Source: Candidatus Sumerlaeota bacterium (GTDB lineage Bacteria > Sumerlaeota > Sumerlaeia > MWCT01 > JAUWMI01). From it: 59,067 nucleotides of DNA. The stretch covers positions 1 through 59,067 of the forward strand of contig JAUWMI010000029.1 in assembly GCA_030613245.1 (NCBI GenBank), read 5' to 3'. Made by a program: the position numbers and the translations under genes. Positions 334-53,707 of this stretch are shown here, piece by piece. Below the pieces are notes generated by a model. It was not told the DNA's origin, did no database searches, and saw nothing but the letters and a program-made list of their open reading frames with translations. Within the stretch, counting starts at the first letter, position 1, and each line of letters begins with the position of its first letter.

Positions 334-3300
334 TCAGGGTGTGAGCGCAAGGCGATACTGTATAAACTTCTGGTTGTGGCCAAAGGTTATCGTGTCGTAT
401 CGCTTTTCCGCATAGCCGGGAGCACTGGCATACAGGTCGTACGTCCCGTCCGGAAGTCCGTAAATAAGGAATTCGCCGGCCATATTCGAGTCGGCGCTCC
501 ACTCCAGTGCCTTAAGGATTTTCGTAGAATTCGTATGTGGCGCAGTCGTTGAAACGAGGATAATTGTAGCTCCTGCAACTGGTTGCTGGCTGCCATTTTC
601 GACCACTATGCCGCTGAATTCCGCATTAAGAAACTCGATGTCCTTCTGTATTTCTTTCGTCACCAGGCTGACATAGTCGCTCGTGGCAATGAATCGCGGG
701 GGCGTCCCAGGGGGTGGCGTAATTACCTTCGCCTCGGCAAGCAGGTAGTATGTTCCCGGAGTGAGATTCTCGATGACGTATTGGCCGTTCTGGGCCACTC
801 TGGCTGTAATGCCGTGCGACCCATTAATAAAATTATTGCTGTCAACAAGATATACCTTCAGGCGGAAATCCTGTAATCCCAGGGCATAGCTGAACAGGGT
901 TCCGCGGAGCGTATGCGAGGTGTCCAGGATAAAATCGACCGTGATGGATTCGTCAGCCAGAACGTATGCCTGCTCGACAGCGTAGACCTTCTGGCCACTA
1001 ATAGTTTTTTCTGCAGTCAGCGTAGCATAGCCGGGAGGAATCCCGTCAATAATATAGTGGCCTCCCGTGTCAGTTGATGCTTTCTTAGTCACATCACCCG
1101 AGCTGGCGGAGACAGTTACCCGGGCCATAGCCTTTCCATCACCGTCCACCACTGTGCCTTCCACAATTCCGCCAGGGTCCATCAAAATGTCGCCAAGCAC
1201 AGTGGGCTCATCTTTAGAGACGCGAATGCCGCGAATGTGTGTGGTTAGATAATGGCTATGGCGCAAAGTCAGGATGTAAGTATCAGGGACAAGGGAGGTA
1301 AACCGGATCATCCCATCATTGCTTGACCTTGCGGTATTCTTCCATCCCTTATTCAATTTCCCTTGGACGCCGCCAATTGGCAAATTCGTTGCCGAGGAGA
1401 CAATCCGGGCTTTTATGCTTCCTCCTGGATCCAGCATAATGGTGCCTATCTGTGTCGTGCCGGGCGAGAAAACCGAGATGTGCTCAACGCGTTTCTTAGC
1501 GTACGCATCAGAAATGATTTCCAGCCGGTAAGTGCCGTCGGGAAGATCTGTAAGCAGAAATTCCCCCCGGTCGTTTAAAAAAGACCTATTGCGAATGGCA
1601 AAATTGCCGGTTGCGCCGTCCCCCTGGTCAACCGTTGCGTCGGCGTTCACCACAAAATTGGGCACTGGCAGAAGCGTGGAGCTATCCAGGACATTTCCGC
1701 TGATAGCCCCATTAATGGGGAAGATGAAATCCACATCCCCTCGACCGCTCTCAACATTTCTTTTGCGCAGGCGATACGATTGCGTTCCGCTTGCCGTCTT
1801 CTTCCTTGCGGTGGCGGTCACCGTGAATTGTCCCTCCCCAATGTTCGAAATAGCATAGTACCCCGTGGCATCCGCAGTTGCTGATCCACTTCCTCTAGCG
1901 CTGCCCTGGGGTCTGGCATTTACTCGGGTATCCTTCAGCGCACTCCCTTTATCATCAATAACCATGCCTGAAATCTGGTAACCACGGGCAAGGGTAAAGT
2001 TGACGTCAGACAGGTGTTCCTCTTCGGCAAGTTCGAGTGAGCGTCGCTGCGTGACGTAGCCATCTGCGGACGTCCTGATGTTCACACGGCCCTCGGCAAC
2101 GTAAAAAAACCTGTACCGGCCATCAGACATCGTCCATGCCTCTGGCTGGTCCGAATAGCGATCTCCTTCAAAGCTGCTATGATTGAGCTGGAGTCGGGCC
2201 TGGCTTATTGGCGTCCCGTCGGAATTGGTGACTTTCCCCGCAATAGAGCCCCCTCGTTTCAGGATGATGTTGACGGAAGCCAAGGGCTGCTTCTCGCTCA
2301 GCAAGATATGTTCGCTTTTTCCTTTTGCGAAATTCTCTGCACATGCACTGGCATAGAGTTCAAGTGTTTTGGCAACGTTAATGCCGGAAATCTTGAAATA
2401 CCCATTCACGTCAGTGGCTGTCTTGAGCTTACGCGTGTTTATGCGATTTTGAGTTCTCGGCGGTTGAAAGATTTGCACCATGGCACATGGTATTGGCTGA
2501 TGCGCTGACGTGTAGACGTAACCGTCAACGCTTCCGCCGCTATAGAGCTTGAGGATCACGCGCGGAGAAGGTTGATCTCGATCCAGAACCACCCTATATT
2601 GCTGACGATAGGAAGTAATACTTACATAACCTTCTGCAGAGGCAGTTAAATAATAAATGCCAGCCGGAAGATTCTTGAACGTGAAGTCTCCCATGTCGTC
2701 GGTGGTGGATTGCATTTTTCGGCCTGCGGGGAACTTGTTGCCAACCTGTGTACGTGCCGCCACTACAGCCTGGGCAACGCCTTTCTTGGTCACGGCGTCC
2801 ACAACAAAACCATTGATGGTTAGCCCCTCATAGACTTCAAAGTCTATACCTGTGACTTGCTTGCCGGGCTCAACTTTTACTCCGTGTTTTTCGGGAGCCG
2901 TAAGCCGGTTGGAAACAACCGCGAGCGAGTACGTATCGCCTGGCAGATTGTCAAACACATAGATGCCCGCACTGTCGCTGGCTGCTCGTTTGCTCAAGGC
3001 ATACTTTCCACCGCTACCCCGTAATTGTATCCGCAGATTTGTCACCGGTTCTCCCGTATCGAGGTACGTAGCCTTGCCTGTAATTGACCCACCGTGTCCC
3101 AGCACGAGGACGTTGTCACTACTGTTAGGTTGGATGCCGGGAAAAACGCCTTGCGCAAAACCCGGAGCTTCAGCCATAAGATCGTACCAGCCTTCTGGAC
3201 GCACATCTTTGATTGCAAAATGTCCTTCACTATCGGTCAGCACAATGAGCGGCTTTTCAATTACCGTTTTACGACTCTGGGGAGCAGTGTATGAGTGTAC

Positions 3301-4242
3301 CCAGACCTTGGCGCCTTGAATGGGTTTCTTTTGTGCAGTGACTACCTTCCCCTCAATCGTCGCGGCAGCGGAAAGTACAATAGTTATCGGAGCGGGAGGC
3401 GTTTGGGGATTCAGGGTGATGTTTTGCGCTGCGGGGGCGAATCCTTGCTTCTCTGCCTTTAACAAGTTAGCTCCAGTGGCAAGGTGAGCCAGGATGAAAC
3501 CACCGTCAGGCCCTGACATCGTGCTGCTGTATCGGTAGGAGGCGGAGAGTGGTTTCCCACCAAACAAATTCAGACGCGAAATAGTCTTTTCCACAAATAC
3601 ACGGGTGTCTCTTACTGGTTGTTGACTTGCATCAACCACTTTACCCTCTAAGCTTAGGCCCGGGTTCAGTGTAAAGTCCAAACCCTCGAGCTGCTGTCTG
3701 TCTTTTAACGCGATGTTAGTGAGACATGCTGAAGCGTAATCGGGATGAAATACACGAATTTCGTAAGAGCTGGCAGTAAGATTTGAAACCCTGTACTGAC
3801 CGTCCGATCCGGTTGACACTGTGGCAACAGGTTGATCAGAATCGTTGGAGATATTCAGAGCGGAGACATCTACGCCAGGCACTGGAGTTTTTGACTCGTC
3901 GGTTATTATTCCAGCAATAGAGGCGAGGAGCGGTGCGCCGACCTTACTCGGTTGGCGAGGCATCGTTTGAGTACTTGCGGCAGCATGTGTGACCAGGGAT
4001 TGCGCGAGCGTTGGACTCGTTGTCCGGATCACAGGCGACTGGGTCACCAGTCCGCTTCGTGCATCTAATGGGCCGAGTATTGTAGTTTCATCAGGCGCCG
4101 GTTTTGAAACAGCGGGAACAGTATCAGGCGATACGGCACTCGGCTGCCGAGCCTGGTCACTCACAAACCTGTATACTGCGAGAGCAACCAGCACGCAGAA
4201 TATGCTGAGCAGGAGAAGTGTACTGGGCTTAGGCGCTGTCAT
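334..4242 (-). CDS. surface protein of tandem carboxypeptidase-regulatory-like domains
   Basis: About 1302 residues. The N-terminus has a short basic stretch and one hydrophobic segment (about residues 8-25), a signal peptide or signal anchor, so the body is probably outside the cytoplasm. The rest is about 13 repeats of 85-100 residues, each opening with a pattern like GxVVD...PVxxAxV and closing with a G-Y-x-L-x-A type strand (for example IEGKVVTAQKKPIQGAKV and VEGTVVDGDGKAMARV). This is the signature of the CarboxypepD_reg or Cna-B-like beta-sandwich, found in adhesins, stalks and substrate-binding proteins. No peptidase domain is present. I chose the ATG at 4242 because GGAAGGA lies just upstream; the frame is open to a TTG at 4275. 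It is divergent from pal, and nothing similar is adjacent. A structural or adhesive role is inferred from architecture only. Confidence 0.8.
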   Translation of the reverse strand: MTAPKPSTLLLLSIFCVLVALAVYRFVSDQARQPSAVSPDTVPAVSKPAPDETTILGPLDARSGLVTQSPVIRTTSPTLAQSLVTHAAASTQTMPRQPSKVGAPLLASIAGIITDESKTPVPGVDVSALNISNDSDQPVATVSTGSDGQYRVSNLTASSYEIRVFHPDYASACLTNIALKDRQQLEGLDFTLNPGLSLEGKVVDASQQPVRDTRVFVEKTISRLNLFGGKPLSASYRYSSTMSGPDGGFILAHLATGANLLKAEKQGFAPAAQNITLNPQTPPAPITIVLSAAATIEGKVVTAQKKPIQGAKVWVHSYTAPQSRKTVIEKPLIVLTDSEGHFAIKDVRPEGWYDLMAEAPGFAQGVFPGIQPNSSDNVLVLGHGGSITGKATYLDTGEPVTNLRIQLRGSGGKYALSKRAASDSAGIYVFDNLPGDTYSLAVVSNRLTAPEKHGVKVEPGKQVTGIDFEVYEGLTINGFVVDAVTKKGVAQAVVAARTQVGNKFPAGRKMQSTTDDMGDFTFKNLPAGIYYLTASAEGYVSITSYRQQYRVVLDRDQPSPRVILKLYSGGSVDGYVYTSAHQPIPCAMVQIFQPPRTQNRINTRKLKTATDVNGYFKISGINVAKTLELYASACAENFAKGKSEHILLSEKQPLASVNIILKRGGSIAGKVTNSDGTPISQARLQLNHSSFEGDRYSDQPEAWTMSDGRYRFFYVAEGRVNIRTSADGYVTQRRSLELAEEEHLSDVNFTLARGYQISGMVIDDKGSALKDTRVNARPQGSARGSGSATADATGYYAISNIGEGQFTVTATARKKTASGTQSYRLRKRNVESGRGDVDFIFPINGAISGNVLDSSTLLPVPNFVVNADATVDQGDGATGNFAIRNRSFLNDRGEFLLTDLPDGTYRLEIISDAYAKKRVEHISVFSPGTTQIGTIMLDPGGSIKARIVSSATNLPIGGVQGKLNKGWKNTARSSNDGMIRFTSLVPDTYILTLRHSHYLTTHIRGIRVSKDEPTVLGDILMDPGGIVEGTVVDGDGKAMARVTVSASSGDVTKKASTDTGGHYIIDGIPPGYATLTAEKTISGQKVYAVEQAYVLADESITVDFILDTSHTLRGTLFSYALGLQDFRLKVYLVDSNNFINGSHGITARVAQNGQYVIENLTPGTYYLLAEAKVITPPPGTPPRFIATSDYVSLVTKEIQKDIEFLNAEFSGIVVENGSQQPVAGATIILVSTTAPHTNSTKILKALEWSADSNMAGEFLIYGLPDGTYDLYASAPGYAEKRYDTITFGHNQKFIQYRLALTP

Positions 4243-4761
4243 TGCAATGCTCGTCCTTCCCGGACTCAGTACCAATAATCGTTCGCTTTATAAAAATCTC
4301 CGGTCTCTTATAAAACGAATGGCAATTTCGAGCGCAAAGATCGCGTGAAACATTGGAAGCGGTGGCTCTCTTTCAGAATTTGACCGTCTATAATAAGACT
4401 AGACAGAACTCAGAAAAGTTTATCAATTGGCGGTCTGGTATGGCAAGGTAAATTCAAAGGAGATATGGGGTGTAGGAAGAATTTAATGGGGTGTTGGTGG
4501 TGGGTTTGCGCCTGAGAAACGTAGATTCCCGCGCAGAAGCGAGCTCTTCTGTATTATGCGAAGGCTTTTTCAGTGCAGAGGTCAGGTTCAGACAGGTGAA
4601 AAAATCGGCGTTGGTGAGTTCTGATACACGGACTGCACGCAGCATTTAACTCTTGACATAGATTCATCGGTTAGAGCTAGAATACAAACCGATTTGCAGA
4701 AAGGGGTGAGAAAGAAAGTTATTGCCACGCAGGCTTGCCATTAAACTCTGAGGAGGATGTT
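4243..4761. other. divergent intergenic region upstream of pal
   Basis: This 519-nt region separates the minus-strand repeat protein from pal. It contains the pal promoter listed separately. I see no other gene; a 63-codon minus frame at 4454-4645 lacks a ribosome binding site and recognisable content. Confidence 0.5.
4653..4683 (+). promoter_or_regulatory. sigma70-like promoter of pal
   Basis: A perfect -35 TTGACA (4653-4658) and a near-consensus -10 TAGAAT (4678-4683) are separated by 19 nt, slightly longer than the ideal 17. The predicted transcript starts about 70 nt before the pal ATG. Confidence 0.5.
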
Positions 4762-46801: not shown

Positions 46802-47264
46802 AATTTACATTAGCCACTGAGGCATAGAGGCACGGAGAAACATTTGGAAGCATCCTCACTGGCTCCCTGTCTCCGTGGTTAAATCTAAAGAATTCATTAA
46901 GAAAGTGTGACGGACATACATATAAGAAGTGTGGAAAGAATAATCAAGTCAATTGTGCCAGGCTTACTCGTACACCATCACATTTGAAATGAGGAGTAAA
47001 AAATCGGGGACTGTCCCAAGCGAGGAACGAGCGCGTGGACTGTACACTATTTTTCAGTGCTGAGCCGCAGCTGCAAGAATTCATATCATACCAACCAGCT
47101 ATTGAAACCACGAATTGCGTGCATTTTTCCTCTTTACAAACACTGGTGGTATTGGCCAGAGTATTTTGGATTTGTCCGACAAGTCCGCCTCTGGCGCAAC
47201 GGAATCAGCCTGAGGCTGATAAATTGGGTGCGAATACGCGGCGCAGGGATGAAGGGAGTGCGTG
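46802..47264. other. 463-nt intergenic region between divergent genes
   Basis: Contains GAGGCATAGAGGCACGGAG (about 46818) and GGGACTGTCCC (about 47008), both short repeat-like strings. A 100-codon frame at 47057-47359 has no family and runs into the next gene in another frame. No gene supported. Confidence 0.35.
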
Positions 47265-48026
47265 ATGCGCGTAGTGTTTCTGGGTACAGGTACGTCGTTC
47301 GGCGTCCCGATAATTGGATGTCAGTGTCGGGTCTGTCAGTCAGAAAATCCGAAGAATAAACGGCTTCGCTCTAGCGTTTACTGTGTGGAAGGAGACAGCC
47401 GGGTGCTGATTGATTGTTCCACCGATTTCCGCCAGCAGGCCCTTACGCATCAGATTGATCGTATGGACGCGGTGCTTTTTACGCATAATCACGCAGACCA
47501 TATCTCGGGGATTGATGATTTGCGCATCTACAACCTAGTGCATCATCGGGCAATTGATGTTTACGGCAACGAGAACGTTATTGATGATATAAAGCGCCGG
47601 TATGACTACTGTTTTAGCCCAGTACAGATCGGTGGGGGAGTGCCACAGTTTGAATTGCATCGTGCTGATGCCCCATTCCGTATTGGTGAGATAGCCATCA
47701 CCCCGATTCCGGTGTGGCACGGCAGTATGGAGATTTTAGGATATCGCTTGAATGATTTTTGCTACGTTACTGATGCGAACAAGATCCCTGAGAGTTCGCT
47801 GGCTGAGATGCGTGGGCTGAAGCTATTGGTTATTAATGCATTGCGTGAGAAGCCCTTTGCCACGCATTTCTCGCTGGCCGAAGCGCTTGAAATTGCGAAG
47901 GCGTTACAACCCCGCCAAGCGTATTTCACCCATATTTCTCACCGCCTGGATCACGAGGATATTAACCGCACATTGCCCGCGGAGTATCAGCTTGCCTATG
48001 ATGGGCTGACCGTTGATCTGGACTGA
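47265..48026 (+). CDS. PhnP/YcbX-like MBL-fold metallo-hydrolase
   Basis: About 253 residues. It opens with VVFLGTGTSFGVPIIGCQC and CRVC, typical of the PhnP-like subgroup, where cysteines bind a structural zinc. The catalytic motif FTHNHADHISGIDD (about 74-87) holds the two-metal site, and later HGSMEILGYR and YFTHISHRLDHED supply further ligands. PhnP cleaves cyclic ribose phosphodiesters; this protein may act on a similar phosphodiester. No phn genes are nearby. I chose the ATG at 47265 with GAAGGGA upstream; a GTG one codon earlier is in frame. Confidence 0.85.
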   Translation: MRVVFLGTGTSFGVPIIGCQCRVCQSENPKNKRLRSSVYCVEGDSRVLIDCSTDFRQQALTHQIDRMDAVLFTHNHADHISGIDDLRIYNLVHHRAIDVYGNENVIDDIKRRYDYCFSPVQIGGGVPQFELHRADAPFRIGEIAITPIPVWHGSMEILGYRLNDFCYVTDANKIPESSLAEMRGLKLLVINALREKPFATHFSLAEALEIAKALQPRQAYFTHISHRLDHEDINRTLPAEYQLAYDGLTVDLD

Positions 48027-48178: not shown

Positions 48179-48251
48179 AACAGAAAGAACTATCAAACCA
48201 CGACGGCACGACGCAAATGCGCCTTAGGCGCACATTTTGATAGTCTCTCTT
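48179..48251. repeat. stem-loop repeat A (left of the BlaI-M56 operon)
   Basis: Perfect 9-bp outer arms ACTATCAAA (48189-48197) and TTTGATAGT (48236-48244) enclose an inner hairpin TGCGCC-TTA-GGCGCA. The left arm region and the string CACATTTTGATAGTCTCTCT recur at 53626-53707 in the same orientation. Confidence 0.75.
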
Positions 48252-48402: not shown

Positions 48403-48432
48403 TTGACATAGCCTACAAGTGTAGGCTATCGC
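48403..48432 (+). promoter_or_regulatory. promoter of the blaI-like operon
   Basis: A perfect -35 TTGACA (48403-48408) is followed after 17-18 nt by a weak -10 (CTATCG or TATCGC at 48426-48432). The spacer is filled by the palindromic operator, so repressor binding would block RNA polymerase. Confidence 0.5.
48408..48429. promoter_or_regulatory. 22-bp palindromic operator with BlaI-like core
   Basis: Perfect inverted repeat with 10-bp arms (ATAGCCTACA and TGTAGGCTAT) around a 2-bp centre. The core TACAAGTGTA fits the TACAnnTGTA motif bound by BlaI and MecI repressors. It lies inside the promoter spacer and 56 nt before the gene for a BlaI-type protein, so autoregulation is strongly suggested. 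Confidence 0.75.
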
Positions 48433-48484: not shown

Positions 48485-48922
48485 ATGGACAGAAGAGCCA
48501 AAAAAGTTTCCAGCCCACCACGTCTGTCTGAAGCGGAATGGATTATTATGAAGCCATTCTGGGAAAGTGGCGCACTGGCTGCACGAGACCTATTCGCCGC
48601 ACTTTCGTCTAATAATCAGTGGGCTTATAAGACTGTGAAGACAATGCTTGCCCGGCTGGTAAAAAAGGCTGCTCTCGAATACACTCAGGTGGGAAACTCT
48701 TATCTCTACCGTGCTCGATTCGGGCAGGAGGAAATGGTGAGGGCAGCGGTTAAGAATTTTTCCCACCGCGTGTTGGATGGAGCACTCGAACCTTTTCTTG
48801 TCCACTTTTTTGAAGGCAGAGAACCCTCGGCAGAGGAAATCTCCACTCTGCGAGGCGTTCTTAAACAACTTAAGGAAAAGCAGGCGCAGGATAATGAGAA
48901 AAAGGCGAGGAACAAAAAATGA
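48485..48922 (+). CDS. BlaI/MecI-type transcriptional repressor
   Basis: 145 residues. The winged helix is seen in LSEAEWIIMKPFWESG, TVKTMLARLVKKAAL (recognition helix) and VGNSYLYRARFGQEE. The C-terminal dimerisation helices include FLVHFFEGREPSAEEI. BlaI-family proteins bind TACAnnTGTA palindromes as dimers and are cleaved when the partner metallopeptidase is activated. GGAGG precedes the ATG at 48485; an upstream GTG (48476) is in frame. It overlaps the M56 gene by four bases (ATGA), so the two proteins are made together. Confidence 0.92.
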   Translation: MDRRAKKVSSPPRLSEAEWIIMKPFWESGALAARDLFAALSSNNQWAYKTVKTMLARLVKKAALEYTQVGNSYLYRARFGQEEMVRAAVKNFSHRVLDGALEPFLVHFFEGREPSAEEISTLRGVLKQLKEKQAQDNEKKARNKK

Positions 48923-51900
48923 TGAATGAAATTATCAGGTTATGGGGGCAATGGATGCTCGCCACATCGTGGCAGGTAGGGGTAATTATTATGATAGTTG
49001 GTGCTCTATGTTTCTTTTGGCGCACGGCCCCGGTGCGCATGGTGCATTTGCTCTGGCTTTTGGTTTTTATCAAACTTCTTATTCCACCGCATCTGGGACA
49101 TGATTATTCGCTTGCCAATCTTCTTGTGCGTTCGGAAATTTTCACATCGCAGCAGGTAGCGGTTAGTAGTGAACAAGAGCAATGGCAAGTTCCTGCTGCG
49201 CATGTGCCCCCAATTACCATCGCAGATAAGAGCGTAATGAACGACAATGAGGTCGGTTCATCTCTTTCGTCCACGTCAAATCAAGAACCACTGGTTGTCA
49301 CTAGTATAACTCCTCCGTTTACTTACCAGCATATTCTTTTTGTCCTTTGGCTGGTAGGCGCTGCAGGGCTTTTGCTCAGAAGTCTAATGAGTGCCAGGAG
49401 ATTCCGGGGGTGGTTGTCTGCTTACGGACAGCCGCCACCTTCATGGTTTAAAGACAAACTGGCAGAATGGTCTCAGAAAGTCGGGCTCAGAAAACCCCCA
49501 GTATGCGTTATTGTTCCAGGAAGCCATTGTCCGTGCCTTTTCGGCTGGTTCAAGCCCCAATTACTCTTCCCTGAGGAGTTGCTAAAGCGCTTGACCCCGG
49601 AGCAATTACAAATGGCTGTTTATCACGAATTAACTCATATAAAGAGAAGGGATACCATTATGAACGGGCTGCAAAGTTTACTGCAAATTATTTACTGGTT
49701 TCATCCAGCGGTCTGGTTGGCGGGACGCCAGGTTCGGCATTACAGGGAGATGGTGGTGGATGAGACGGTCGTATCCGCTCATAAGAATTTACCCAAGCAT
49801 ACTTATGAGCAAACGATTCTTGCTCTGGCAGAGCAAAGTCCAGCACGCCCGGTGCCTGCGATGGTAGGGATTCTGGAGTCTCGCAGTTTTGTGTTCAGAA
49901 GGGTGATGCGACTCGTCGCCAGCTCCTCCACAAGAATTGGTTGGCAGCGAACGCTATTAAGCTGGGTGATGTTGGCTCTGTTTACTTTCTTCTTAATTCC
50001 AATGGGGATAAGTCAGCCAAAGGTTTCCCCATCTGATAGGCTAAACGTGGAGAAAAAAGCGTTTCCCGAAGTTCTGAATGAGCCGCAGAGGCTCTATATG
50101 CAGTGGACGGAAGAAAAATTTTCCGGGTATCTTGACAGGAGTGAATTTGCCAACCTCTCAGATTCAACCAAAGCGGAGCTTGAAGAGAGATGGATTAGCA
50201 TTCTGGAAGGACCGCGGAGTCGCAAATATTATGATACGATTAATTGTCTTGGGGCTCTAAAGAGCAGACGAGCGGTGAAACCGCTCCTCCATATTGCTGC
50301 CGAGCGTCGGGAAAAGGACAATCGCGATCGCTGGATGGCGGTCAGGGCGCTGGGGATAGTTGGCGATGAATCGGTTGTGCCGGAGCTTATTCACCTGATT
50401 TATCATTACAATCAGAACACACGGTTCTGGGCGCAGATTTCGCTCGCACGAATCACAGGCGTGAATTTCGGCTATGACTGGCAAAAATGGGGTGAGTGGT
50501 GGAATCAGCAAGGTAAGCAACCACCATTCTCTCCTGAAAAAATCACCTGGACCACCAAATACCCTGAATGGGCTGACCCACAGAAGCAAAAGGAAAGTGA
50601 TAGAGAGTTCATTGAGAAATTAAAACCTAGGGACAAGCCTGAAGAAAAACGCAGCTGGGGGCCGGAGCAGGCAACAGGTGAACCTGACACGCCAAAGGCA
50701 GGGGACATTGAAACTGCATGGGCGTCACTGACGCCTGATGGGCAAAAGGAATGGCTGATGCTGGAATATGCCGAATCTGTCGTTCCCAAAGGCGTGAAAA
50801 TCTACGAAACATATAATCCAGGCGCTGTATATAAAATAAGTGTGTTCACACAAGATGGTGAAGAGGTGGAGGTCTGGACTGGAAAAGACCCCACAGCTCC
50901 AGGCAGCGGTAAAGGTGTTTCAGAAATCCCGTTCAGTGTGAACTTCAAAACCAACCGCGTGAAAGTCTATCTCGACTCACCTGGCGTGAAAGGTTGGAAC
51001 GAGATTGATGCAGTGGGACTGGTTGACATTTACGATAAGACTCAATGGGCAATTGCCGCCGCTGCCAGCAGCACTTACGCTGAGAAACAGAGCGGCACCA
51101 CAGAGCAGCCCGCACCAATGACTGTCTCTCAAACAGTCGGCGAACCGATCCCTGACAACACCGTAAAACTGAGCTATGTTGATGACACTGCTGAGGGCAA
51201 ACTTAGTCTGGGCGCTTCAGGGCACGCTGTTCAATTTAAACGTGCCGAAGGCCTTAGGTTTATTGAAGCGGTTCAGATTGCTGCCAGCCGCTACGGCTAT
51301 CCTGAGCCACCAAAAGAAGACTTTCACCTCTATCTGCTAAATGAAGAATTTCAGGTATTGGCGGATTTGCGCTATCCGTATGCTATGGTCGAGCGGACAT
51401 CGGATCTTCGCTGGTACACGTTCCGAACGCCCTCCGTTGAAGTTCCAGATAAATTTTATGTAGCTCTGAATTTCAATCCCAACCAAACCAAAGGTATCTA
51501 TCTGGGTTTCGACAGAAACGTGCAAGAGTCGCACTCATATTCAGGCCTACCTGATAGCGGATATGAAAAAGTGAGAGACACCTATGATTGGATGGTCAGG
51601 GTGTATATGTCCAGCGAGCCTTCCGGTGAGAAAGGCCTCCAGCGGTTAGCGGACTGGAAGCCTCCGGAACATATTGACCCATTTGAGGAATGCATTGAAG
51701 TAAAATTTGATACAGGCACATCAGATGATATGCAGAGCTACGGCGGGCGTGGGCCGGCTATTCGTTTCCGAATCGGAGATGCCTTGCCAGAGGGGGTTCA
51801 TTATCCTGATGTTGCCCTTAGAGGTATTCGATTATACGCCAGTCGCTACGGTTCGGGGTATGATCCCCAGCAGACACTCGTTAAGATCTATATAATTGAT

Positions 51901-53352
51901 GAATCCGAGAAAGTATGCCTGGAGGAAACCTTTCCCTATGCCCTTTTCAGCTACAAAGCCAAGTGGGTTGACCTGGTTTTCACCAAGCCTTTCCCTCTCA
52001 AGAATCTACCAGATGCCAAAGGATTTATGACCATTGCCCTTGACCCGGAGGCGCATCAGTATAGGGGGATTTACTTTCACTATAACAGGAATCCCAAGAC
52101 GTCTCATTCCTTGGCGGGAAACGTTAAATCAGGATTTAAACAAATCGCCGACCGGGAGTGGATGATAAGGGCATATTTTGTAGCTAACGGAAAAGACCAG
52201 GCGGACGAAGCGGCTAAAGCAAAGAAAGTTTTTTTGCTCAGCGAAACCACTGAGATGAAAGAGATTGCCATAAACCTTCAGGAAGAGATAGACAAGGCAC
52301 AATCCGGTGGTGTCGTCATCGTTCCGTCAGGCAAGCACGAGGGCCCCCTGGAAATCACCAAGCCCCTGACGCTGCGTGGCGAGGATGCCGGCACGTGCAC
52401 GATTGAACTGCTCGGCAATGAACCAACCATCACCATCAGAGGTACCAAGAACGTTGTGCTTGAGAATTTGACGGTTCGCTGGGCACCGAAATCAACTGAC
52501 GTGCGTATTGAATCTCCCGCTGCAATATATGTGCGAGACAGCGACGTTGTGATTCGCGGTTGCCGCCTTGAGCCCATTGATCGGCCCAAAACCACGCCTT
52601 ACGCTATAATGGCTGCAGGTAGAACCAACGTGACCTTTACCGAAGGCAGGAGCACGGGCTTCGCCTACGCTCTGATTTTCCTTGAGGGTGCCAACGGCAC
52701 CGTGAGCAACTCGATTCTCACAGATGCCGGGCATAGCGTGGTCACGCTTCATGCCAACTCGCACGTCAAAATCATTGGAAATATCCTTGGCCGATGTGAG
52801 TATCATGCGGTGCGCAATACTGGTGGGACAATGGATATGACGAATAATTTGGTAATCGGCGACAATCGAGCTGGCGCTTATCTCGGTAATAAATCAGCCC
52901 ACGGGCGCATCGCTAACAATCTGTTTTCCAAGAATCGTGGAGCGCTCTGGGCTTATGCTCGTTCCGACGTTGTTATCGAGAACAACGTTTTTTATGCTGA
53001 AAATGCTCCCGGTGTGGGGTTTCAGGATACCTGCAACTTAACCATACGCCGCAATAGCTTCGTGAACAATGCGCAAGGTCTGACCAGGTATTCAAAAGAA
53101 GGCAGACCGCCTGGCATCGGCGCGCGCACCAATGGCAACCACTATTGGAACAATAAAGAAGACTTCGTGAATTTTGACAAAGAGGCCTCTGCGCTATATG
53201 GGGACCCGAAATTCACCGACCCCAGCAATGGTGATTTCTCGCCGCAAAAAGGCTCACCGCTTCTGGATGATGAAGGCAACCCAGTCGCCGGCCTGACTGA
53301 TCCCAAGCCAATTCGGGCTCTCTGGGCAACCTGGACTACGCTGAATCAATAG
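48919..53352 (+). CDS. M56 (BlaR1-type) metallopeptidase with HEAT-like, discoidin-like and beta-helix sensor region
   Basis: 1477 residues. Residues 1-345 are an M56 domain: membrane helices near 20, 45 and 135, then YHELTH (zinc motif H236-E-L-T-H240) and REMVVDE, giving the third ligand at about E277. A final helix lies at about 346-365, after which the chain should be extracytoplasmic. There follow HEAT-like helices (about 437-515), then a discoidin-like segment (about 590-700, with WNEIDAVGLVD). Two copies of a beta domain follow (about 751-898 and 928-1089; compare AASRYGYPEPP with YASRYGSGYDP). A right-handed beta-helix (about 1116-1404, with LTLRGEDAGT) is last. BlaR1 normally has a penicillin-binding sensor there; none is present. 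The ligand may be a polysaccharide or cell-wall fragment, which is inference. Confidence 0.82.
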   Translation: MMNEIIRLWGQWMLATSWQVGVIIMIVGALCFFWRTAPVRMVHLLWLLVFIKLLIPPHLGHDYSLANLLVRSEIFTSQQVAVSSEQEQWQVPAAHVPPITIADKSVMNDNEVGSSLSSTSNQEPLVVTSITPPFTYQHILFVLWLVGAAGLLLRSLMSARRFRGWLSAYGQPPPSWFKDKLAEWSQKVGLRKPPVCVIVPGSHCPCLFGWFKPQLLFPEELLKRLTPEQLQMAVYHELTHIKRRDTIMNGLQSLLQIIYWFHPAVWLAGRQVRHYREMVVDETVVSAHKNLPKHTYEQTILALAEQSPARPVPAMVGILESRSFVFRRVMRLVASSSTRIGWQRTLLSWVMLALFTFFLIPMGISQPKVSPSDRLNVEKKAFPEVLNEPQRLYMQWTEEKFSGYLDRSEFANLSDSTKAELEERWISILEGPRSRKYYDTINCLGALKSRRAVKPLLHIAAERREKDNRDRWMAVRALGIVGDESVVPELIHLIYHYNQNTRFWAQISLARITGVNFGYDWQKWGEWWNQQGKQPPFSPEKITWTTKYPEWADPQKQKESDREFIEKLKPRDKPEEKRSWGPEQATGEPDTPKAGDIETAWASLTPDGQKEWLMLEYAESVVPKGVKIYETYNPGAVYKISVFTQDGEEVEVWTGKDPTAPGSGKGVSEIPFSVNFKTNRVKVYLDSPGVKGWNEIDAVGLVDIYDKTQWAIAAAASSTYAEKQSGTTEQPAPMTVSQTVGEPIPDNTVKLSYVDDTAEGKLSLGASGHAVQFKRAEGLRFIEAVQIAASRYGYPEPPKEDFHLYLLNEEFQVLADLRYPYAMVERTSDLRWYTFRTPSVEVPDKFYVALNFNPNQTKGIYLGFDRNVQESHSYSGLPDSGYEKVRDTYDWMVRVYMSSEPSGEKGLQRLADWKPPEHIDPFEECIEVKFDTGTSDDMQSYGGRGPAIRFRIGDALPEGVHYPDVALRGIRLYASRYGSGYDPQQTLVKIYIIDESEKVCLEETFPYALFSYKAKWVDLVFTKPFPLKNLPDAKGFMTIALDPEAHQYRGIYFHYNRNPKTSHSLAGNVKSGFKQIADREWMIRAYFVANGKDQADEAAKAKKVFLLSETTEMKEIAINLQEEIDKAQSGGVVIVPSGKHEGPLEITKPLTLRGEDAGTCTIELLGNEPTITIRGTKNVVLENLTVRWAPKSTDVRIESPAAIYVRDSDVVIRGCRLEPIDRPKTTPYAIMAAGRTNVTFTEGRSTGFAYALIFLEGANGTVSNSILTDAGHSVVTLHANSHVKIIGNILGRCEYHAVRNTGGTMDMTNNLVIGDNRAGAYLGNKSAHGRIANNLFSKNRGALWAYARSDVVIENNVFYAENAPGVGFQDTCNLTIRRNSFVNNAQGLTRYSKEGRPPGIGARTNGNHYWNNKEDFVNFDKEASALYGDPKFTDPSNGDFSPQKGSPLLDDEGNPVAGLTDPKPIRALWATWTTLNQ

Positions 53353-53625: not shown

Positions 53626-53707
53626 AACAAAAAGAAATATCAAACCACAACGGTACAACGAGTACTACGTTAATACCCCTTAGGAACACATTTTGATAGT
53701 CTCTCTT
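53626..53707. repeat. stem-loop repeat B (right of the BlaI-M56 operon)
   Basis: Direct repeat of 48179-48251: AGAAATATCAAACCAC and ACACATTTTGATAGTCTCTC are shared, while the middle has diverged. The operon lies exactly between the two copies, 5.4 kb apart. Confidence 0.7.

Follow-up and report, generated by a model that had tools for sequence, protein, structure and literature searches.

A BlaI-linked M56 membrane protease with HEAT, discoidin-like, beta-sandwich and beta-helix modules in place of a penicillin-binding domain in a Candidatus Sumerlaeota bacterium

To our knowledge, BlaR1-BlaI has hardly been described other than as a switch for antibiotic resistance, and a gene pair with the same type of protease and repressor but quite different outer domains raises the question of what such a switch would sense and what it would control. 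The pair lies on the forward strand (as do the coding features of the operon described below) of a 59,067-nt stretch of DNA, the window, which corresponds to contig JAUWMI010000029.1 of a Candidatus Sumerlaeota genome (GCA_030613245.1; 97 contigs, 4.29 Mb scanned). An earlier note, made from the sequence alone, had described a BlaI-type repressor gene overlapping an M56 gene by ATGA, and both frames were confirmed: positions 48485-48922 encode a BlaI/MecI-family repressor of 145 aa (PF03965, Penicillinase_R, E 1e-28), and positions 48919-53352 an M56 sensor-protease fusion of 1477 aa, which is a single unbroken frame with an even G+C content (0.475-0.526 per module). Immediately next to the pair, neither a CAZyme nor a transport operon was noticed, and the metallo-hydrolase encoded at 47262-48026 has its best Pfam match in Lactamase_B_2, not in a classical beta-lactamase family. 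The operon is flanked on either side by similar stretches (48199-48242 and 53637-53700; TATCAAACCAC.ACGG.AC.ACG... to ACATTTTGATAGTCTCTCTT), possibly representing a small dispersed repeat.

Residues 16-331 of the fusion (48964-49911) match Peptidase_M56 (PF05569, E 1.8e-39) and were aligned to the structure of S. aureus BlaR1 (8exp). Hydropathy maxima at residues 14-32, 37-55, 139-157 and 346-364 correspond to four membrane segments in the order known from BlaR1, with the HELTH zinc motif (residues 236-240; 49624-49638) placed between segments three and four. The motif is intact, as had been noted before: H236, E237, H240, E277 (49747-49749) and D281 (49759-49761) align with BlaR1 H201, E202, H205, E242 and D246, which identifies H236, H240 and E277 as the zinc ligands and the catalytic E237 and D281 as conserved (for the roles of the BlaR1 zinc ligands and Asp246, see PMC9834060). 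The gluzincin HEXXH...E arrangement together with four membrane segments, a trait of BlaR1/MecR1, is thus present, and beyond the fourth segment (49954-50010) the chain is probably extracytoplasmic.

In this outer part, however, the resemblance to BlaR1 ends. No Transpeptidase or penicillin-binding model of Pfam matched residues 370-1477, and the NCBIfam BlaR1 models cover only residues 23-362, with blaR1_generic ending at residue 362 and scoring 99 against a cut-off of 400; the earlier statement that a penicillin-binding domain is absent therefore stands. With the BlaR1-BlaI and MecR1-MecI systems of Staphylococcus and Bacillus (8exp, 1sd4, 1okr), the locus has in common the BlaI-family repressor, HEXXH...E, the D246 equivalent, the four membrane segments and the gene pair. 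Whereas BlaR1 and MecR1 carry a class-D beta-lactamase-like sensor and have a beta-lactamase gene or mecA as target, the window protein carries HEAT, discoidin-like, tandem beta-sandwich and beta-helix modules that together make up 1100 residues, and its system has no such target. It would work in the manner of BlaR1-BlaI, yet strictly speaking it is not a BlaR1, as the penicillin sensor that defines one was looked for and is absent. The BlaI-BlaR pair of M. tuberculosis (Rv1846c/Rv1845c) likewise combines BlaI with an M56 protein devoid of a penicillin sensor (PMC9834060), but it lacks an equivalent sensor domain, whereas that of the window protein is very large.

The repressor aligns with the structure of S. 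aureus BlaI (1sd4, E 1e-12), and the bond at which BlaR1 cuts BlaI, Asn101-Phe102 (N101|F102), aligns with His-Phe here; the scissile region is conserved, and the M56 protein would cut the repressor at H|F. Upstream of blaI, a -35-like hexamer, TTGACA (48403-48408, read in the sequence), is directly followed by a perfect 20-nt palindrome, TAGCCTACA-AG-TGTAGGCTA (48409-48428), which fills the promoter spacer 56 nt ahead of the start codon and which we propose as the BlaI operator; TATCGC at 48427-48432 corresponds to a weak -10 element, and the promoter is absent from the consensus-scan list. Its TACANNTGTA core is that of the staphylococcal BlaI and MecI operators of the BlaR1-BlaI and MecR1-MecI systems. 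At up to 3 mismatches, only 0.01 such sites would be expected in the window. The exact core was also found upstream of blaI at 4 further loci (L035, L036, L038 and L039) and as a near-match at L034, all of which encode closer relatives of this BlaI, while it was not found upstream of more distant blaI relatives. Both traits of the BlaI/MecI family, PF03965 and a TACANNTGTA-type palindrome in the repressor's own promoter, are found here and suggest that BlaI represses at the palindrome. Taken together, the zinc ligands, the scissile region of the repressor and the BlaI-type operator argue, at the level of sequence, for the earlier proposal that the proteolytic signalling core of BlaR1-BlaI is kept.

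Across the 4.29 Mb genome, one further site within 3 mismatches of the palindrome was identified (contig C52, 2 mismatches), and the reversed pattern, used as a control, yielded none at the same threshold. The C52 site lies 55 nt ahead of its gene (56 nt in the case of blaI), and GACA precedes the palindrome at the corresponding position. The gene, which has no known link to the switch, encodes a product of 535 residues with CarboxypepD_reg repeats and a start that reads like a signal peptide. These findings point to a two-operon regulon comprising the BlaI-M56 switch and this secreted-protein gene. Genome-wide, a looser 14-nt operator pattern was no more frequent than the reversed control (6 vs 8 sites); a large BlaI regulon was therefore rejected, only the two strong sites were kept, and further targets are not claimed. 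Likewise rejected was the idea that the C52 product is a relative of the CarboxypepD_reg domains fused to M56 proteins, as BLAST gave merely generic repeat similarity. In the window itself, positions 334-4275 of the reverse strand encode a protein of 1313 residues with CarboxypepD_reg-like repeats and distant similarity to the predicted second target.

The outer part of the fusion consists of five modules if both copies of a duplicated domain are counted, and a structure model of residues 370-1477 (mean pLDDT 66) is confident mostly for two of them, HEAT and beta-helix (mostly 80-93). Next to the membrane, a HEAT-repeat domain spans approximately residues 382-569 (50062-50625); the HEAT-like character proposed before is confirmed by a Pfam match to HEAT_2 (residues 424-510, E 4e-8) and by a helical model with pLDDT mostly 80-92. 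This domain is 60% identical to its counterpart in L029 and 48% to those in L034 and L031, and HEAT repeats usually bind proteins. It is followed by a discoidin (F5/8 type C)-like domain (residues 581-740; 50659-51138), which falls below the Pfam threshold for PF00754, matches a CBM32 structure (5zu6) at E 0.07 and is modelled unreliably (pLDDT <50). Its tentative assignment draws on relatives: it is 48% and 38% identical to two secreted proteins (L105 and L106), which themselves match PF00754 (F5_F8_type_C) weakly, at 7e-4 and 7e-3, under the curated cut-off. Scans of the discoidin region and the adjoining beta domains against Pfam at high E and against PHROGs gave no match.

The duplicated beta domain corresponds to two copies of an unnamed beta-sandwich, residues 746-935 (51154-51723) and 936-1100 (51724-52218), each 53-57% identical to L031/L030 and 41% to L103. 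Copy 1 aligns with copy 2 at E ~1e-12, so that the duplication is a genuine internal repeat. The tandem has neither a Pfam match nor a sequence match to solved structures. Modelled separately (pLDDT 82), it had its best hits in a fold search with a Pleurotus lectin (E 6e-5), with BcsB, with a glycan-binding surface protein of Bacteroides and with tandem CBM51/CBM22; lectin 6li7 and viral jelly rolls are among the matches, with low TM-scores of 0.15-0.23 for lectins and CBMs. Two adjacent secreted proteins of a Pirellulales MAG (L085:4288-7376) each contain a single unnamed beta domain, one together with PEGA and the other with a staphylococcal-nuclease domain; this domain family is without an entry in Pfam.

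The C-terminus, residues 1111-1477 (52249-53349), is a right-handed beta-helix, as described before (PF13229, Beta_helix, E 6e-22 for residues 1253-1389; pLDDT 80-93 over most of its length). Fold searches returned GH87, PL6 and other polysaccharide lyases, and a viral fold search only generic beta-helix and tail-spike matches. With PL6 alginate lyases and chondroitinase B (AlyGC 5gkd, 5z9t, 7o78) it has in common the right-handed beta-helix and the position of the catalytic lysine (K1325), which is kept in all 4 aligned copies (window, L032, L033 and L104). In contrast, the PL6 arginine is replaced by Tyr in the window and by Tyr or Phe among these copies, and the two glutamates that bind calcium, located 5 and 7 positions ahead of the lysine, are both Ala (residue roles and glutamate-lysine spacing from PMC12028748). 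With 2 of the 3 catalytic or metal features that were tested absent and the lysine alone kept, PL6 lyase activity was rejected; because the arginine and the calcium glutamates are replaced, the beta-helix probably serves for binding rather than as a PL6 lyase. As regards the earlier suggestion of a circuit that senses a carbohydrate or wall polymer, the fold comparison favours carbohydrate-type modules (with TM-scores <0.25 for lectins and CBMs), and such a polymer may be the signal.

The earlier note had overlooked not only the operator but also that this pair is one among many differently equipped M56-BlaI pairs. A single-sequence scan of the genome contigs returned no relative and a profile scan returned four. 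A BlaI gene lies beside 31 of the 35 Sumerlaeota M56 genes that were scanned, and none of the 35 encoded proteins has a penicillin-binding domain. Instead, their C-termini include HEAT, ankyrin with a PA-IL-like lectin domain, TPR, T2SSG, SPOR, CarboxypepD_reg, LRR, DUF4097, DUF4252, secretin, PDZ, Golvesin_C, CARDB and beta-helix. Searching for the domain order of the window protein, as had been suggested, revealed M56-HEAT (L029, L034) and M56-beta-helix (L032) within Sumerlaeota and, in a different phylum, M56-HEAT-beta-beta in the complete genome G311. There, a BlaI gene overlaps by ATGA a gene for a 1571-residue protein (L103:3724-8849) whose tandem domain is 41% identical to that of the window and 63% to a Planctomycetaceae record (L084); G311 is therefore likely a planctomycete. 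Unlike the window protein, its M56 protein has many more HEAT repeats, a core that is only 26% identical and neither a discoidin-like domain nor a beta-helix that could be found, and its upstream repeats look different. Among the genomes examined, the five-module order is complete in the window only, the junction from the second beta-sandwich copy (B2) to the beta-helix being the sole one with no counterpart elsewhere.

The module exchange is best illustrated by L032 (G034), in which a beta-helix 53% identical to that of the window directly follows the M56 core beside a BlaI gene. The two M56 cores are only 26% identical and fall into separate well-supported clades of the tree, and L032 lacks the HEAT, discoidin and beta-sandwich modules. 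Conversely, L034 (HEAT) and L035 (ankyrin and lectin-like) are sister chassis with unlike outer parts. Since near beta-helices sit on distant M56 cores, modules move between M56 chassis. They also occur free of any protease, as beta-helix and beta-domain genes in L030 and L033, which encode secreted proteins, and in L104 (G174), or anchored to the membrane in L031. The latter (L031:5558-8449, G027) has retained, of the M56 part, the final 54 residues with the membrane helix, followed by HEAT and both beta domains, whereas the zinc site is lost; it is directly preceded by a serine acetyltransferase-like gene, no BlaI was found beside it, and it is probably an M56 remnant.

We consider it an evenly balanced proposition that the locus encodes a repressor-cleavage switch of the BlaR1-BlaI type in which the envelope sensor has been exchanged and would probably bind a glycan or glycoprotein, most likely a polysaccharide or glycosylated polymer. 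BlaI would bind the palindrome in its own promoter as well as the second site before the CarboxypepD_reg gene, keeping both operons off. The M56 protein would span the inner membrane such that the zinc site faces the cytoplasm and approximately 1100 residues extend into the periplasm, where the tandem beta-sandwich, discoidin and beta-helix modules could bind a polysaccharide or a glycosylated polymer of the envelope or matrix and the HEAT domain next to the membrane could relay the change or dock a partner protein. Binding would activate the protease, and cleavage of BlaI at H|F would derepress both operons. Gene order and domain order, their recurrence, the exchange of modules, the intact residues of the protease and the operator can be read from the sequences, whereas we infer repression, cleavage, topology, the class of ligand and the direction of the signal.

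The protease-free secreted or membrane-anchored modules support an envelope location, and they also support a reading in which the modules are the output, as they may act rather than sense. The fusion would then be a surface-displayed binding protein that is autoregulated through its attached protease and BlaI, with the trigger sensed elsewhere, for example at loops of the membrane part or through the assembly state of the surface protein. The remnant L031 and the free secreted versions fit this reading, as does the operator pattern in G009 and G005, which occurs only upstream of their own blaI genes. We nevertheless regard it as fairly unlikely: the segment at the equivalent position of BlaR1 is the sensor (PMC9834060), the neighbouring BlaI is kept by nearly all of the scanned M56 genes whatever their C-terminus, and a second target gene is predicted in the genome of the window. 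Rather improbable, too, is a sensor of envelope proteins or stress, in which HEAT would bind a periplasmic protein or a misfolded envelope component and the carbohydrate-type modules would merely anchor the receptor to the wall or outer surface. While no other module is as well conserved as HEAT on this chassis, and while HEAT occurs alone in L034 and is of a generally protein-binding type, as are the ankyrin, TPR, LRR and PDZ C-termini of other M56 proteins, this reading has to account for three additional carbohydrate-type modules and for L032, where the beta-helix directly follows the membrane helix in the absence of HEAT.

A response to beta-lactams or peptidoglycan damage would be in keeping with the homology of the core to BlaR1/MecR1 and with M. 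tuberculosis BlaR, which has no sensor domain (PMC9834060) and for which a separate protein has been proposed to deliver the signal. The lack of a penicillin-binding domain throughout the scanned phylum members and the Lactamase_B_2 affiliation of the nearby metallo-hydrolase make this very unlikely. Hardly credible is an artefact of assembly or gene prediction that joined unrelated genes in a metagenome bin. Although the assembly is in many contigs and all five modules together occur in no other genome examined, the frame is unbroken, G+C is even, and partial orders recur in L029, L031, L032, L034 and the complete genome G311, which largely refutes this explanation. The preferred reading, an exchanged sensor on a conserved switch, is thus confronted neither with a penicillin-binding domain nor with an isolated fusion, though free beta-helix and beta-domain genes exist.

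The chassis with interchangeable sensors is of greater interest than the single gene. With slightly less than even confidence, we propose that the M56-BlaI pairs of Sumerlaeota and at least one other phylum form a general, modular class of one-component signalling across the membrane, whose constant protease-repressor chassis carries interchangeable envelope sensors (HEAT, ankyrin, TPR, LRR, PDZ, CarboxypepD_reg, secretin-like, lectin-like and beta-helix), most of them unrelated to beta-lactams, and which here would read extracellular polysaccharide and control a secreted surface protein. The open-access literature yielded no survey of M56-BlaI pairs with alternative sensors, which argues only weakly for novelty. 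Should this protease and repressor routinely be combined with other outer domains, the sensing of antibiotics would be a special case among the uses of a general chassis for envelope signalling, and annotating such genes as "BlaR1 family beta-lactam sensor" would mislead. A polysaccharide-responsive repressor-cleavage switch would furthermore constitute a new route of bacterial glycan perception.

Different palindromes, e.g., TACGAA...TTCGTA and ACTAATTAATTAGT, were observed upstream of blaI in L040, L045, L046, L047, L051 and L103, which suggests BlaI subfamilies with distinct operators. Furthermore, contig C46 of the same genome as the window contains a second BlaI-family gene (L028:10808-12524), located ~115 nt before a gene for a 393-residue protein with no intervening M56 gene. 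This protein starts with a hydrophobic N-terminal stretch and contains, in two copies, an unnamed module that is 54% identical to a protein encoded near the BlaI-M56 pair of G311 (L103:239-1507), and the locus may represent an M56 system that has lost its protease.
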